From: Nonomuraea thailandensis
GTDB lineage: Bacteria > Actinomycetota > Actinomycetes > Streptosporangiales > Streptosporangiaceae
Direction: 5' to 3'
Assembly: GCF_024172165.1 (NCBI RefSeq)
Contig: NZ_JAMZEB010000002.1
Span: 8,096,501 to 8,160,500 of the forward strand
DNA length: 64,000 nt
Below, piece by piece: positions 36,540 to 55,840 of this stretch. A model generated the notes under the pieces. It was given only the letters and a program-made list of their open reading frames with translations, was not told where the DNA came from and searched no databases. Position 1 is the first letter of the stretch. Each line of letters opens with the position of its first letter. A program made the position numbers and the translations under genes.

Positions 36540-37310
36540 TCAGCCGCCCGGGCCGCGCCGGTTCACCAGCACCTCGACGCCGTCGAGCACCCGCTGCAGC
36601 CCGAACTCGAAGGCGTGCTCCGGGCTGTAGGCGGCGTTGAGCGCCTCGCCCGCCGCCTGCCCGACCCGGGAGGCCGTGGGGTAGCGGGTCGCGTCGGCGA
36701 TCCGGCTGAGGAAGGGCGCGTGCGCGGCCCACCACTGCTCGTCGCTGATGCCCGTCTCGTGCTCCGCCTGCGCGGCCTCCACCGCGCCCCTGGCGGTGCC
36801 GTGCACGAAGCCGGTGATCAGCGTGATCACCGAGTCCATCTCCAGGTCCGACAGGCCGATGCCGTCGACCGCGCGCAGCTCGTAGTCGTACTTGGCCGTG
36901 ACGTTGGGCCCGAGCACCGGCCGGTTGGCCGCCACCTGCAGCAGCCACGGATGGCGCAGGTAGAGCGCCCAGTTCTCCCTGGCGATCTGCTCCAGCCTGC
37001 CCCGCCAGCCGCCCGGCACGTCGTCCGGCCTGGCGGTCTCGCCGTAGACCGTGTCGAGCATGACGTCGAACAGCTCCGGCTTGCCCGGCACGTACGTGTA
37101 GAGCGACATCGTCCCCACGCCCAGCCGCTCGGCCACGCGGCGCATGGACAGCGCCTGCAGCCCTTCGGCGTCGGCCACCTCGATGGCGGCGCGCACGATG
37201 CGGTCCACGCTCAGCTCCGGCTTGCCCTTGCGGCTGGCGCGCTCGCTGGTGCGCCAGAGCAGCGCCAGGCTGCGGGCGGGGTCGCCCTTCCCCGAGTACT
37301 CAACTGTCAC
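36540..37310 (-). CDS. TetR family regulator of the DrrAB-type exporter
   Basis: A 256-aa TetR protein. Helix-turn-helix lies near residues 36-76 (LQALSMRRVAERLGVGTMSLYTYV, PGKPELFDVM), and the C-terminal half is of the TetR_C type seen in drug-efflux repressors. GTG 37310 lies directly beside the first operator, and GAGG is too close for normal spacing, so a leaderless transcript is possible. It is divergent from drrA, and its stop is 3 bp from that of the choline-dehydrogenase gene. Confidence 0.87.
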   Translation of the reverse strand: MTVEYSGKGDPARSLALLWRTSERASRKGKPELSVDRIVRAAIEVADAEGLQALSMRRVAERLGVGTMSLYTYVPGKPELFDVMLDTVYGETARPDDVPGGWRGRLEQIARENWALYLRHPWLLQVAANRPVLGPNVTAKYDYELRAVDGIGLSDLEMDSVITLITGFVHGTARGAVEAAQAEHETGISDEQWWAAHAPFLSRIADATRYPTASRVGQAAGEALNAAYSPEHAFEFGLQRVLDGVEVLVNRRGPGG

Positions 37311-37313
37311 CCT

Positions 37314-37371
37314 CGTACGGTACACCGTACGGTTGCCATCGCCATCCGTATTCTGTACGGTACAGCGTACG
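37314..37371. promoter_or_regulatory. Two palindromic operators 40 bp apart between TetR and drrA
   Basis: Operator 1 (37314-37331) is CGTACGGT-AC-ACCGTACG, with perfect 8-bp arms. Operator 2 (37354-37371) is TGTACGGT-AC-AGCGTACG, with 6 of 8 positions paired. Their centres are exactly 40 bp apart, close to four helical turns, and they flank the 78-bp divergent promoter region. This fits a TetR repressor controlling itself and the exporter. Confidence 0.75.
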
Positions 37372-37388
37372 ATTCGAGAGGTGACACC

Positions 37389-38327
37389 ATGACAGCGGTA
37401 CTCGCGCAGGGACTGCGCAAGACGTACGGCGAGAAGGCGGCGCTGGACGGCATCGAGCTGGACGTGCGCCGTGGCACGGTCTGCGGCCTGCTCGGCCCCA
37501 ACGGGGCGGGCAAGACGACGGCCGTGCGCATCCTGACCACGCTGCTGCGGCCGTCGGGCGGGCGCGCGGAGGTGGGCGGGTTCGACGTGACCACCCAGCC
37601 CCGCCAGGTGCGCCGCACCATCGGCCTGGTCGGTCAGCACGCGGCGGTGGACGAGCTGCTGACAGGGCGGCAGAACCTGGAGCTGTTCGGCCGCCTCTAC
37701 CACCTGAGCGCGGCCGAGGCCCGCAGGCGGGCGGCCGAGCTGCTGGAGCAGTTCGGCCTGGAGCACAAGGGGCCGGCCAAGGAGTACTCGGGAGGCATGC
37801 GCCGACGGCTCGACCTGGCGGCCGGCCTGATCCTCGCGCCGCCCGTGCTCTTCCTCGACGAGCCGACGACGGGCCTCGACCCGCGCAGCCGGGCGGAGAT
37901 CTGGCGCGCGGTGCGCGAGCTGGTGTCCGGCGGCACCACGGTGCTGCTGACCACTCAGTACCTGGAGGAGGCCGACCAGCTCGCCGACCGCATCTCGGTG
38001 ATCGACTCCGGCCGGGTGGTGGCCGAGGGCACCCCTGACGAGCTCAAGGCCAAGCTCGGCGGCGACCGGCTCGACGTGGTCGTTCACGACCCCGAGCTGC
38101 TGGCGACCGCCGCCGAGCTCATCGGCCGGGTGGCGTCGGGGCCCGCCGAGGTCGATCGCGACACCCGGCACGTGAGCGCGCCGGTGAGCGAGCGCGTGCA
38201 GGCGCTCACGGAGGTCCTGACCGCCCTGGCGGCGGCCGGGATCGAGGCCGAGGACGTGGCGGTGCGCCGCCCGACCCTCGACGAGGTCTTCCTCGACCTG
38301 ACCGATGCCGGAGGTGGCTCCCGATGA
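37389..38327 (+). CDS. Drug ABC exporter ATPase (DrrA type)
   Basis: A 312-aa ATPase. Walker A GPNGAGKTT near residues 36-44, signature YSGGMRRRLDLAAGL near 136, Walker B VLFLDEPTTGLDPRSR, H-loop TTQYLEEADQLADR. The C-terminal extension (PTLDEVFLDLT) is that of DrrA/DRA1 drug and lipid exporters. It is coupled by ATGA to the permease gene. Probable substrates are hydrophobic antibiotics, which would also be the ligand of the divergent TetR. Confidence 0.88.
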   Translation: MTAVLAQGLRKTYGEKAALDGIELDVRRGTVCGLLGPNGAGKTTAVRILTTLLRPSGGRAEVGGFDVTTQPRQVRRTIGLVGQHAAVDELLTGRQNLELFGRLYHLSAAEARRRAAELLEQFGLEHKGPAKEYSGGMRRRLDLAAGLILAPPVLFLDEPTTGLDPRSRAEIWRAVRELVSGGTTVLLTTQYLEEADQLADRISVIDSGRVVAEGTPDELKAKLGGDRLDVVVHDPELLATAAELIGRVASGPAEVDRDTRHVSAPVSERVQALTEVLTALAAAGIEAEDVAVRRPTLDEVFLDLTDAGGGSR

Positions 38328-39142
38328 CCGCGGTGACCTTCACGGAGAGCCCGCTCACGCGGCTGCGCTGGGCGCTGGCAGACGGCTGGACGGTCGCCCG
38401 CCGCGACCTGATCCACTGGGCCAACCAGCCCATGACGGTGGTGTTCGGGATCGTCTTCCCCGTCATCATCACCCTGGCCTTCGGCTACCTGTTCGGCGGC
38501 GCGGTGCGGGTGCCCGAAGGGGCGGGCTACTTCGCCTTCCTCATGCCCGGCATGTACGGCATGACGATGCTGTTCGGCCTGAGCGCCACCATGGTCGCCG
38601 TCACCACCGACGCCTCCAAGGGCGTCACCGACCGCTTCCGCTCCATGCCCATGGCCCCCTCGGCCGTCCTGATCGGCCGCGCCATCGCCGACCTGCTCAA
38701 CTCGATCCTCGTCCTGGCCGGCCTGCTGGCCTGCGGCCTGGCGGTCGGCTGGCGCCCGGCCACGCTCTCCGGCGCGCTCGGCGCGGTCGGCCTGCTGCTA
38801 CTCCTGCGCTTCTCCCTGCTGTGGGCCGGGATCTACCTGGGCCTGCTGACCAGGGACCGGGGCGGCGTGGTGGCCGTCCAGACCCTCGAGTTCCCCATCG
38901 GCTTCCTCTCCAACGCCTTCGTCGCCCCCTCCACCATGCCGGGCTGGCTGGGGGCGCTGTCGGAGTGGAACCCGCTGTCGTCCACGGTGGCGGCGGCCAG
39001 GCAGCTCTTCGGGAACCCGGGGTGGGGCGGTGACTCGTGGGTGGCCCAGCACGCGGTGCTGATGGCCGTCGCGTGGCCGGCCGTGATCACGGTCGTGTTC
39101 TTCGTGCTCTCGGTACGGCTCTACCAGCGCCTGGACCGCTGA
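38324..39142 (+). CDS. ABC-2 type exporter permease (DrrB type)
   Basis: A 272-aa membrane protein of the ABC-2 family with six hydrophobic segments. It has the DrrB-typical start (WTVARRDLIHWANQPMTVVFG), FPVIITLAFGYLFGG as first helix and GLSATMVAVTTDASKGVTDRFRSMPM before helix 3. It forms the channel for the DrrA-like ATPase. A gap of 82 bp with a strong promoter separates it from the next gene. Confidence 0.87.
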   Translation: MTAVTFTESPLTRLRWALADGWTVARRDLIHWANQPMTVVFGIVFPVIITLAFGYLFGGAVRVPEGAGYFAFLMPGMYGMTMLFGLSATMVAVTTDASKGVTDRFRSMPMAPSAVLIGRAIADLLNSILVLAGLLACGLAVGWRPATLSGALGAVGLLLLLRFSLLWAGIYLGLLTRDRGGVVAVQTLEFPIGFLSNAFVAPSTMPGWLGALSEWNPLSSTVAAARQLFGNPGWGGDSWVAQHAVLMAVAWPAVITVVFFVLSVRLYQRLDR

Positions 39143-39148
39143 ACCCTG

Positions 39149-39213
39149 TTGACATCCCTGATAGCTTGCTGGCTAAATTAGATTTGCTTGCAAAGCAAAC
39201 TTAATTTAGCCAG
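39149..39213. promoter_or_regulatory. Promoter with 45-bp AT-rich palindrome before the reductase-hemerythrin gene
   Basis: TTGACA (39149-39154) is followed 19 bp later by TAAATT (39174-39179). A 45-bp palindrome (39169-39213) overlaps this -10 and ends 12 bp before the start codon. Its outer arms CTGGCTAAATTA and TAATTTAGCCAG match perfectly, and 19 of 22 positions pair overall. At about 35% GC it stands out sharply. It is probably an operator for a trans-acting repressor, since no regulator gene is adjacent. Confidence 0.7.
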
Positions 39214-39224
39214 AGGACAGTGAG

Positions 39225-40022
39225 TTGACGGACTTCAACCAGCAGGTGATCGAGGAGTTCCGGGCGAACCGCGGCAAGGTGGGCGGCATGTTCGAGGGCG
39301 CCCCGCTGGTGCTGCTGACCACCGTGGGCGCGAGATCCGGCCGCAGGCGCACCAACCCCGCCGTCTACCTGCGTGACGGCGAGCGCATCCTGGTCTTCGC
39401 CTCCAACGCGGGCGCCGACGCGCATCCCGCCTGGTACCACAACGTCGTCGCCCAGCCGAGGGTCACGGTCGAGCTCGGGGAGGAGACGTTCACGGCCAGG
39501 GCGGTGCCGCTGGAAGGAGCGGAACGCGAGCGCATGTACGCCCGGCAGGCCGCCCTCGACCGGGCCTTCGCCGCGTACCAGGCCGGGACCTCCCGCGTCA
39601 TCCCCGTCGTCGCGCTGCACCCGGAGCGGGAGCGGCTGCGGGCGATCGGGGGCGAGCTGGTCAGGATCCACGCCTACCTGCGGGGCGAGCTGGCCAGGCT
39701 GCGCGCCGGCGAGCCGGGCGCCGGTGAGGACCTGCGGGCGCACTGCGCGGCCTTCTGCGAGGCGCTCACCTTTCACCACTCGGGCGAGGACCGTGTGGCG
39801 TTCCCGCACCTGGAGCGGCTGTTCCCCGAGCTGAAAGAGCCCCTCGACCGACTGCGCGACGAGCACGTCGCGATCGCCCGCCTGGTCGAGGAGCTACGCG
39901 GAGCCCCCGACGCGGCGACGCTCGACCGGATCGCCGCGGAGCTGGAGGCTCACTTCGCCTACGAGGAGGAGCGACTCGTACCGGTGCTCGACTCCCTGGA
40001 GGAGGTGCCCTGGGAAAGTTAG
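39225..40022 (+). CDS. Deazaflavin (F420)-type nitroreductase fused to hemerythrin
   Basis: A 265-aa two-domain protein. Residues 1-130 are a DDN-type split-barrel (GAPLVLLTTVGARSGRRR, PAWYHNVVAQPRVTVELG), the family that uses F420H2 to reduce quinones and nitro compounds. Residues 135-260 are a hemerythrin HHE domain with the diiron ligands recognisable as His149, His184/185, Glu188, His214, His243 and Glu247. Fusion of the two could couple F420-dependent reduction to O2 or NO sensing. TTG 39225 follows AGAGGA. Its stop overlaps the convergent cvnD stop. Confidence 0.82.
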   Translation: MTDFNQQVIEEFRANRGKVGGMFEGAPLVLLTTVGARSGRRRTNPAVYLRDGERILVFASNAGADAHPAWYHNVVAQPRVTVELGEETFTARAVPLEGAERERMYARQAALDRAFAAYQAGTSRVIPVVALHPERERLRAIGGELVRIHAYLRGELARLRAGEPGAGEDLRAHCAAFCEALTFHHSGEDRVAFPHLERLFPELKEPLDRLRDEHVAIARLVEELRGAPDAATLDRIAAELEAHFAYEEERLVPVLDSLEEVPWES

Positions 40023-40597
40023 TGGACGGCGGTGGCGCGCAGGCGTACGACGTGCTCGACCAGCGAGATCAGCGTCGACTTGACCGACTCGCGGTTACGG
40101 GCGTCCGTACGCACGATCGGCACCCCGGGCGACAGCGCGAGCGCCTCCCTGACCTCGTCGTCGGAGTGCGGGAACTGCCCGTCCCAGCCGTTCACCCCGA
40201 TGACGAACGGCAGCTTGGCCTCTTCGAAGTAGTCGATGGCCGGGAAGCTGTCGGCCAGGCGGCGCGTGTCGAGCAGCACCACCGCGCCGATCGCCCCCCG
40301 CACCAGGTCGTCCCACATGAACCAGAACCGGTGCTGACCGGGCGTGCCGAACAGGTACAGGATCAGGTCACGGTCGAGCGACAGCCTGCCGAAGTCCATC
40401 GCCACGGTCGTGGTCTGCTTGTGCGGCGTCAGACCGAGGTCGTCGATGCCCGCGGACGCGTCGGTCATGACCGCTTCCGTGGTGAGCGGGAGAATCTCCG
40501 ACACCGCCCCCACGAACGTCGTCTTCCCGACGCCGAAGCCGCCGGCGACGACGATCTTCGTCGACGTCAGCCCGGCGCTAGAGCCTGCGTAGTCCAC
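40019..40597 (-). CDS. cvnD: Conservon 3 small GTP-binding protein (CvnD)
   Basis: A 192-aa CvnD. P-loop GGFGVGKTTF is at residues 19-28, with FGTPGQHRFWFMWDDLV and NGWDG. Asp-Tyr opens the protein (MDYAGSS) where the other two copies have Asp-Phe. GTG 40597 lies within cvnC in the conserved 20-nt overlap. The stop overlaps the stop of the convergent reductase-hemerythrin gene. Confidence 0.92.
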   Translation of the reverse strand: MDYAGSSAGLTSTKIVVAGGFGVGKTTFVGAVSEILPLTTEAVMTDASAGIDDLGLTPHKQTTTVAMDFGRLSLDRDLILYLFGTPGQHRFWFMWDDLVRGAIGAVVLLDTRRLADSFPAIDYFEEAKLPFVIGVNGWDGQFPHSDDEVREALALSPGVPIVRTDARNRESVKSTLISLVEHVVRLRATAVH

Positions 40598-40940
40598 TGA
40601 GCACCCTTTCGAGCATGTTGAGGTCTGGCTGTCCCTGGCTGAGGCGTGGCTGGTGCAGGCGGACGAGCCCTTCGTCGGACATGTCCGCCACAAGCACCCT
40701 GGCCACGCCCAGCGGGACGCGGAGCAGGGCCGAGATCTCGGCGACCGACCGGAACGACCTGCAAAGCTGCATGATGGCCTCCTGCTCGGGGGTGAGCATG
40801 GCCATCTCGTCGTCCGGGATCGACATGGACGAGATCAACGTCTCCATCGCGAGGTGGTAGCGCGGCTCCGATCTGCCGCCTGTCACCGCGTAAGGACGGA
40901 ACAGGGGCTCTTCGTCCCCGGTTCCGTCAGCGCCGTACAC
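40578..40940 (-). CDS. cvnC: Conservon 3 DUF742 protein (CvnC)
   Basis: A 120-aa DUF742 protein with FRPYAVTGGRSEPR, FRSVAEISALLRVPLGVARVLV and the terminal LLERVLSGLRRL. It differs from the others by an acidic, Met-rich central helix (SIPDDEMAMLTPEQEAIM). GTG 40940 follows GGAGAGG. It lies between cvnB and cvnD as in the other conservons. Confidence 0.92.
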   Translation of the reverse strand: MYGADGTGDEEPLFRPYAVTGGRSEPRYHLAMETLISSMSIPDDEMAMLTPEQEAIMQLCRSFRSVAEISALLRVPLGVARVLVADMSDEGLVRLHQPRLSQGQPDLNMLERVLSGLRRL

Positions 40941-40966
40941 GGCCCTCTCCCATCAGTTCCATCACA

Positions 40967-41389
40967 TCACCGGGTCCTGGCGGCCTGCAGCTCCGCGCGC
41001 AGGGCCGGCGTGAGCGCCTGTCCCGCCCTGTCTACCAGCAACGTCATCTGATACGCCACCAGACCCATGTCACAATCCGGACCCGCCAGAACCGTCAGCA
41101 CGGAGCCGTCGCTGATCGCCATGACCAGCAGCAGGCCGCGCTGCATCTCCACGACGGTCTGCGTCACCGCACCGCCCTCGAACACCCTGGACGCACCCAC
41201 GGTCAGGCTCAGCAGACCCGCGGAGACCGCGGCGAGCTGGTCGGCCCGGTCCGGAGGGAAGCCCTCCGAGGCGGCCAGGCAGAGCCCGTCCGCGGAGACC
41301 ACGACGGCATGCGCGACTCCGGGCGTGTTGCGTACGAAGTCGGTGATCAGCCAGTCGAACCTGTGCGCCTCATGGCTAAGGGTTGTCAC
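40967..41389 (-). CDS. cvnB: Conservon 3 roadblock/LC7 protein (CvnB)
   Basis: A 140-aa Roadblock/LC7 protein with WLITDFVRNTPGVAHAVVVS, DGLCLAASEGFP and CDMGLVAYQMTLLVDRAGQAL. GTG 41389 is preceded by GGGAGGA. Unlike conservons 1 and 2, it is not coupled to cvnA by ATGA but follows it by 21 bp. It is the most divergent CvnB of the three. Confidence 0.92.
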   Translation of the reverse strand: MTTLSHEAHRFDWLITDFVRNTPGVAHAVVVSADGLCLAASEGFPPDRADQLAAVSAGLLSLTVGASRVFEGGAVTQTVVEMQRGLLLVMAISDGSVLTVLAGPDCDMGLVAYQMTLLVDRAGQALTPALRAELQAARTR

Positions 41390-54652: not shown

Positions 54653-55836
54653 AGCTCCTCCAGCACGTCCGCGAGTGCCACGACTCCCGCCTCGCAGTCT
54701 GCCCGTTCGGCGTGCTCGCTGGGGGAATGGGACACGCCGGTGGGGTTCCTGACGAACAACATCGCGCTCGGTACGCCTGCCGCGGCGAGGATCCCGGCGT
54801 CGTGACCGGCGCCCGTGGGCAGGATCGGCGCGGGCGTGTCGCCGCCGGCGGCCCGGGCGATCCGGTCCCTCAGCGCGGTGTCGAAGGCGACGACCGGGGT
54901 CCACGACTCCTCGCGCACCTGCGCCCCCTCGGAGAGCTCGGCCACCAGGGCGCGCACGGCGTCCTCGTCGGCGCCGCGCGCGTCCAGCCAGGCCGAGGCC
55001 AGGCCGGGGATGGCGTTGGCGTTGCCGGGAGAGACGCGCACCTTGCCGATCGTGGCCACCACCCCGCGGCGCTCGGCCGCCTCGCGCGCGGCCAGCACCA
55101 TGCGGGCCAGCGGCAACATCGGATCGTCGCGGTCGGCCAGCCTGGTGGTGCCCGCGTGGTCGGCCCGCCCGCGGAAGTCGAAGCGCCACCGCCCGTGCGG
55201 CCAGATCGCACTGGCCACCCCCACGGGACGGCCCTCGGTGACGAGCCCGCGGCCCTGCTCCACGTGCAGCTCGACGAACGTGCCGACGGCGGCCAGCGTC
55301 TCGTCGTCGCGCCCGAGCCCGCCGGGCCTGCGCCCGGCCCGCTTCAGCACGTCGGCCAGGGTGTCGCCGTCGTCGTCGGTGAGCGCGAGCGCCCGCTCGG
55401 GCGGGAGCACCCCGGTGAGCAGCCTCGACCCCACGCACGGCACGCCGAACCTGGCGCCCTCCTCGTCGGTGAAGCAGGCCACGCCCAGGGGGACGGACGG
55501 TGTCACGTGCCGCTCGCGGAGCAGGTCGAGCGCGGCGAAGGCCGACACGACGCCGAGCGGGCCGTCGTACGCGCCGCCCTGCCGTACGGAGTCGAGGTGG
55601 CTGCCGGTGACGACGCCGGGGCGCTCCGGCGACGGGGTGCCCCACCAGGCCCACAGGTTGCCGTTGCGGTCCTCCCGCAAGGTCAGCCGGCGCCGCCCCG
55701 CCTCGCCCGCGAACCACTCGCGCAGCTCCAGGTCGGCCTCCGACCACGCGTCGCGAACATAACCGCCGGTCTCCGGATCTCGTCCCAGGTGCGCGAGTTG
55801 CTCAAGCATGGACCCAACTCTAGTGAATGGATCCAT
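54643..55836 (-). CDS. M20-family amidohydrolase (allantoate amidohydrolase-like)
   Basis: A 397-aa Zn-dependent M20 peptidase-fold hydrolase. Metal and catalytic elements are visible: GSHLDSV near residue 78, [10 protein letters not shown] near 126, ELHVEQG near 187 and the dimer-lid His in RADHAGTTR. The family includes allantoate amidohydrolase and N-carbamoyl-amino-acid hydrolases. In this hut operon it sits where the missing N-formylglutamate deformylase (HutG) should be. ATG 55836 lies inside the palindromic operator. ATG 55809 would remove nine residues, leaving the operator wholly upstream. Confidence 0.85.
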
Positions 55837-55840
55837 TCAC
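55823..55840. promoter_or_regulatory. Perfect 18-bp palindrome at the M20-hutF-hutI start
   Basis: GTGAATGGATCCATTCAC is a perfect palindrome covering the upstream candidate start codon. The same GTGAAT ... ATTCAC arms recur upstream of hutU (59081-59106). It is the likely operator of the RpiR-type regulator encoded between the two. Confidence 0.75.

Follow-up and report, generated by a model that had tools for sequence, protein, structure and literature searches.

A putative MarR operator without its divergent repressor gene at an FDOR-A/hemerythrin fusion in Nonomuraea thailandensis

The fusion gene and its surroundings

The window, i.e., the whole analysed stretch of 64,000 nucleotides from the 13.77-Mb genome of Nonomuraea thailandensis (G000:C2:8096501-8160500), contains a gene in which a DDN-type (FDOR-A) reductase domain is joined to a hemerythrin domain, behind a long AT-rich palindrome. 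The features of the locus (window positions; operator elements are candidates) are as follows.

36540-37373, minus strand: TetR-family gene, 1.8 kb from the fusion promoter
38324-39142, plus strand: ABC-2 (DrrB-like) permease gene, the left neighbour, on the same strand as the fusion and now abutting its promoter
39143-39148: place of the divergent MarR gene in relatives; the gene is absent here
39149-39155: TTGACAT, a -35-like element, equivalent to the minus-strand MarR start-codon region in the Nonomuraea that have the cis MarR
39169-39213: 45-bp palindrome centred on 39191, with pairing at 19 of 22 arm positions and 36% GC
39173-39181: CTAAATTAG block, the same in all 12 congeneric promoters holding the site
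39183-39199: putative operator core TTTGCTTGCAAAGCAAA, 17 bp, conserved in comparison across genomes
39225-40022, plus strand: gene for the FDOR-A/hemerythrin fusion (265 aa), starting with TTG
39249-39620, plus strand: PF04075 (F420H2_quin_red) domain, residues 9-132, E 6.9e-36
39657-39989, plus strand: PF01814 (hemerythrin) domain, residues 145-255, E 2.9e-16, predicted by AlphaFold2 as four long helices
40022-44461, minus strand: genes of ATP_bind_1 GTPase-like, DUF742, roadblock and large sensor-like types

The last gene set is of the conservon type; its part at 40022-41389 is 91-98% identical among relatives. Both domains proposed by the sequence-only reading were confirmed by profile searches. 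The match to PF04075 reached 123.7 bits (curated cut-off 22), which places the protein in the FDOR-A family, TIGR00026 gave 94.5 bits (cut-off 46.35), and PF01814 gave 60.5 bits (cut-off 25.3), with candidate iron ligands in place. Orthologues use TTG, ATG or GTG as start codon at or close to this position, and the closest named relatives among the matches listed are Nonomuraea records.

A protein-alignment scan of genome contigs found at least 479 relatives of the fusion, of which the best 80 were retained. All of these 80 span both domains, which speaks against the rarity that a check of fusion frequency had been meant to probe, and in a phylum-wide sample of 396 genomes at least 8 carry the fusion at full length. 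The FDOR-hemerythrin fusion is widespread and ordinary for actinomycetes. Residues H149, H184, H185, E188, H214, H243 and E247 are identical in all aligned fusions (24/24 and 40/40, window included; the 40-row alignment consists of the window and 39 of the 80 retained loci). We take H149, H184, E188, H214, H243 and E247 to be the hemerythrin ligands by the pattern H-HxxxE-H-HxxxE, and the initial impression of intact diiron ligands agrees with their identity in 40 of 40 fusions.

A partial literature search, covering titles and abstract beginnings, found no published description of an FDOR-hemerythrin fusion. The available passages of PMC8498797 do not contain the word "hemerythrin", and those of PMC4919030 do not contain "F420"; in passages of PMC5712208, PMC3599157, PMC7482061 and PMC9268430 both words, where present, refer to separate genes or proteins.

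The promoter palindrome and its MarR partner

As described from the sequence, the promoter carries a long AT-rich palindrome, which proved to be the best-scoring symmetric palindrome of the window. An equally strong one was present in 8 of 200 windows simulated with a first-order Markov model, so that the length of 45 bp is only moderately unusual and, by itself, weak evidence. A separate, perfect 18-bp palindrome, GTGAATGGATCCATTCAC, of low GC content for this genome, lies at 55823-55840.

The search for the palindrome elsewhere in the genome, proposed along with its description, returned the core at this place only: TTTGCTTNNNAAGCAAA (up to one mismatch) and TTTGCNNGCAAA (exact) occur at one place each. 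The shorter motif TTTGN4CAAA occurs at 11 places, versus 8 for the reversed control, and no other regulon member was recognized by eye among the remaining 10 places in this genome, none of them resembling the operator block. Searching 54 congeneric genomes with the pattern CTAAATTAGNTTTGCTTNNNAAGCAAA (up to three mismatches), we found the operator block in 12, at one place each; it precedes the fusion in 11 and a lone 133-aa hemerythrin ORF in the remaining one (G023). Identity to the window's protein ranges from 72 to 88% among the ten congeneric fusion orthologues, and TTGACA, the CTAAATTAG block and the core are, by eye, common to their promoters and that of the window. TTGACA is named only -35-like because the scan for consensus sigma-70 promoters found none at its threshold in the fusion promoter.

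The outer arms do not share this conservation. The outer right arm is complete in the window's genome only; G039 pairs 13 of 16 positions and the other scored orthologues at most 10 of 12 (L005, L010, L011 and L012 were left out of the scoring). The expectation that orthologous promoters would carry the palindrome was thus borne out for the core and failed for the outer arms, and, judging from these comparisons, the meaningful part of the palindrome is the 17-bp core. The outer right arm of the window's genome differs from that of G039 by a short insertion mirroring the left arm. Together with the frequency of equally strong palindromes in simulated windows, this would fit a mutational product (templated quasi-palindrome correction) or a structural element with no operator function; such an origin explains the outer arms at most, as the core is kept across genera with a MarR partner, and we consider it very improbable.

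In 10 of the 12 genomes a divergent MarR-family gene (~152 aa) starts at the operator block. The MarR Pfam models score above cut-off for this cis type, as well as for the paralogue discussed below. A MarR profile built from the genus and run on the 80 retained fusion loci detected a strong divergent MarR directly upstream in 17 of them (E 1.9e-71 to 9.7e-89), 6 in Nonomuraea (including L102, recorded as [Actinomadura] parvosata) and 11 in Actinomadura, Actinocorallia, Streptosporangium, Nocardia, Streptomyces, Kribbella and Actinophytocola. In total, 21 loci had a MarR-like match; those of L116, L126, L173 and L178 (E 7e-4 to 1e-8) are weak and non-adjacent and were not counted.

The motif TTTGN4CAAA, defined in Nonomuraea, was sought within 300 bp upstream of the same 80 fusions and found in 15 of the 17 MarR-linked loci (9 of 11 outside Nonomuraea), versus none of the 63 others, which include 7 Nonomuraea (Fisher p 2e-14, with relatedness ignored and loci within a genus not independent). 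The looser core TTTGCTTNNNAAGCAAA (up to one mismatch) was found in 16 of 17 (10 of 11 outside the genus) versus 0 of 63, and the exact 17-mer in 5 of the 80 loci. L107 and L109 possess the MarR with no exact TTTGN4CAAA upstream, and L107 is devoid even of the looser core. As far as sequence comparison can tell, an inverted repeat is thus conserved between the MarR gene and its divergent target, together with the pair. In the tree of fusion proteins (42 of the 80 loci, i.e., all 17 MarR-linked and 25 of the 63 others, plus 6 other rows), the MarR-linked fusions all group to one side of a single branch (support 91/53, recovered in 92% of 200 bootstrap trees), with the window and G039 labelled as MarR-linked despite lacking the cis gene.

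When 394 genomes of the class were searched for the core as DNA only, it was found at 16 places in 14 genomes (up to one mismatch). Of these loci, which include the window and extend ~1.5 kb to each side, some ending at contig ends, 8 contain this MarR gene, 7 the fusion or one of its domains, and 10 at least one of these; at the 6 other sites neither gene lies within the short loci. An unexplained AT-rich palindrome could therewith be turned into a testable MarR operator, its partner being found in eight actinomycete genera among the loci retrieved (with the exact motif in seven).

Similar arrangements have been described. In SCO3205-sco3204, according to the passages of PMC3737563 available, a MarR gene is divergent from an enzyme-like gene, as in the relatives of the fusion, and pseudopalindromic operators lie 21 nt from one gene and 36 nt from the other; the consensus is TTnAAnnnTCAA there and TTTGCTTGCAAAGCAAA at the fusion, and the window no longer has the MarR gene. 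CrtR of Corynebacterium glutamicum, as presented in passages of PMC5401885, is likewise a divergent MarR-type regulator with a small regulon and a site over the promoter, but has a TTAA motif and a carotenoid operon as its target.

The regulatory role ascribed to the palindrome in the sequence-only reading therefore seems to belong to the core, conserved with the divergent MarR, and not to the full 45 bp. The lineage-specific outer arms, which extend the palindrome, might suggest that it is now read by a different regulator unrelated to the fusion-linked MarR family. The conservation is nevertheless that of the MarR-linked core, of which the genome has no second copy, and we find such a replacement quite unlikely.

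Two further observations concern the sites and genes of this group. In L111, L117, L127, L129 and L147 two TTTGN4CAAA sites lie exactly 17 bp apart upstream of the fusion, a spacing that suggests two MarR dimers side by side. A related MarR clade (L099 4277-5193, L078-L083) is divergent from a short gene, which reads by eye as a tautomerase, and has AATTAGCTTTGATGTCAAAGGTAATT-like sites before the MarR start.

Loss of the divergent repressor and possible readers of the site

Among the 12 genomes with the operator, the cis MarR is missing only in the window's genome and in G039. In both, the best MarR match is a paralogue encoded elsewhere (62-63% identity). The distance from the permease stop codon to the operator block is ~30 bp in the window and ~38 bp in G039 versus 476 bp in G015, i.e., ~445 bp shorter than in the latter. 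The observation that the palindrome has no local regulator is accordingly correct for the immediate promoter, with the permease at its left, while a TetR-family gene is located 1.8 kb away; the comparison indicates moreover that the missing regulator is a derived state, best explained by the loss of the divergent MarR gene.

For the permease, each of the two genomes finds its closest match in the other, and the window's best match for the ABC ATPase, the fusion and the region 40022-41389 is again in G039, with the TetR gene in a near tie with G004. By the simplest count the MarR gene was lost once, in a common forebear; the tree of fusion proteins does not join the two (88/79, 88/52), so two losses are possible. 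Apart from this, the MarR gene occurs with no adjacent fusion in G002 and G040, and decayed MarR-fusion pairs are seen in G049 (L044 5672-6499; both genes truncated towards each other and overlapping) and G041 (L097; fragments only).

We consider it probable that the site is an orphan MarR operator that has outlived its cis repressor and is now either unread or read in trans, and that the enzyme is an F420H2-using quinone/enone reductase. In the ancestral state, the fusion subfamily of actinomycetes would have been transcribed away from a MarR-family repressor gene, and the repressor, sitting on TTTGCTTGCAAAGCAAA between the genes, would have blocked both promoters until released by an effector; the site and the partner are shown by comparison, and binding, repression and the effector are our supposition. 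Deletion of the repressor gene in the forebear of the window's genome and G039, with the site retained, would leave an operator without a cis repressor.

If anything still reads the site, the best candidate would be the MarR paralogue at G000:C2:6194719, ~1.9 Mb from the fusion and 62% identical to the lost cis type (44 of 64 positions in the DNA-binding region). Paralogues of this kind are present in the window's genome, G039, G017 and G011, and none of comparable identity was seen, among the matches listed, for the 10 operator genomes with a cis MarR; the window's genome and G039 being close relatives, the co-occurrence is taken as a single event. The MarR tree, from which the truncated MarR of G049 was left out, places the window's paralogue within the same family, in a long-branched clade of its own (100/99) with those of G039, G017 and G011. 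Relocation of the lost gene is disfavoured, as the paralogue does not group with the Nonomuraea cis MarRs (the branches are long and its exact place is unsure).

Reading of the orphan site in trans by the paralogue is plausible from the distribution of sites. In G039 the sequence TTTGCNNGCAAA occurs exactly twice, 15 bases ahead of the paralogue start and ahead of the fusion; G017 likewise carries a pair of such sites, one ahead of the paralogue and the other ~43 bases upstream of where a Glyoxalase_3 gene is predicted to start. Across the 54 genomes TTTGCNNGCAAA occurs 0 to 3 times per genome versus 0 to 7 for the reversed control, so background matches exist. The left half-site at the fusion, GCTTTG, is changed to GGTTTG in G039 and to GATTTG in the window, and these same forms occur at the promoter of the paralogue itself in G039 and G017. 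In the window's genome the paralogue's promoter has an imperfect site, GTTGCCGGCAAA, with one mismatch; for this reason, and in view of the 44/64 identity in the DNA-binding region, trans reading is a weaker claim than the operator itself. That the paralogue actually took over the fusion promoter after the cis repressor was lost is possible but rather doubtful; if true, one operator would have been rewired naturally from one repressor to another.

The orphan-operator reading has a second form, in which the site is a fossil with no reader and the fusion is expressed constitutively, and this we regard as quite possible. It would agree with the single occurrence of the core in the window's genome, the imperfect site of the paralogue and the altered base of the conserved GCTTTG half-site in both repressor-less genomes. 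On the other hand, the 17-bp core is perfect in both of these genomes and deviates in 6 of the 10 that keep the repressor, suggesting continued selection or chance. The close relatives with and without the repressor gene make the loss of a regulator, and possible rewiring, measurable. In another genus of the same family (G770), the operator precedes a fusion that has no MarR beside it; a MarR gene with the same kind of site lies 10.8 kb away, next to an MFS transporter gene. With this second split case, the arrangement has arisen elsewhere too.

Predicted function of the fusion protein

The AlphaFold2 model built with the 40-sequence alignment (mean pLDDT 87.4, pTM 0.56) shows a mixed alpha/beta domain and, after it, four long helices; given the pTM of 0.56, it was used for the folds of the domains and not for their mutual placement. 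In a Foldseek search with this model the 16 best rows are FDOR-A/Ddn-type chains, which assigns the split-barrel fold, and no hemerythrin chain is present among the 50 rows listed. The nearest solved chain is 8d4w (MSMEG_2850), to which the domain is 54% identical in the structural alignment; 3h96 comes second.

The fusion shares the split-barrel domain with the FDOR-A reductases MSMEG_2850, 3h96 and Ddn (3r5r) and differs from them in the added hemerythrin domain and in two F420-site positions of Ddn. The F420-contacting residues of Ddn, as given in passages of PMC3267046, are R54, K55, T56, R60, K79, W88, N91 and Y133. All 40 aligned fusions retain W88 and N91, together with P63 and Y136 of Ddn. 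The K55 equivalent is R or K and that of T56 is S or T, R60 corresponds to R (13) or H (27), and Y133 to F (15), Y (4) or W (21); the R54 equivalent is A and the K79 equivalent N or A in all 40. Judging from family membership, use of F420 by the fusion is likely.

The hemerythrin part has the H-HxxxE-H-HxxxE pattern in common with HHE proteins such as bacterial hemerythrins and RIC (the RIC model gives 20.4 bits, cut-off 204.7). The commonest partners of hemerythrins are signalling domains, according to passages of PMC4919030; here the hemerythrin is instead C-terminal to an FDOR. The domain may handle O2, NO or peroxide.

The sequence-only reading had proposed that the fusion could couple F420H2 chemistry to O2, NO or iron sensing. 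An F420H2-driven O2 or NO reductase, with electrons passing from F420H2 to the diiron site, would be in keeping with the conservation of both domains and of the expected ligands in all 40 fusions. Against it, F420H2 donates hydride whereas a diiron site accepts single electrons, no FMN mediator domain is found among the domains of the fusion, the lysine equivalent to K79 is absent throughout, and single-domain versions occur behind such an operator in three genomes, an FDOR in G568 and a hemerythrin in G636 and G023, which indicates that the two domains need not be joined. Such a reductase is unlikely, and direct F420H2-to-diiron coupling is unsupported.

As for the quinone/enone reductase that we favour, the neighbours of the MarR group or its sites in the loci examined include FDOR, hemerythrin, an NAD(P)H-binding protein (G548), the MFS transporter (G770) and the glyoxalase-like gene (G017), the related MarR clade lies next to the tautomerase-like gene, and FDORs have promiscuous quinone and enone activity (PMC8498797, PMC5449967). 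Together these suggest electrophile or quinone detoxification, and the fusion enzyme is probably a quinone/electrophile reductase, a role resting on knowledge of the family. It would use F420H2 to detoxify electrophiles, and the hemerythrin domain would serve as its diiron partner for handling O2 or peroxide. Since the widespread fusion is linked to a repressor, the inducer of the latter could reveal the substrate. In the hemerythrin part, C174 and C178 (window 39744-39758), four residues apart, are also identical in 40 of 40 fusions.
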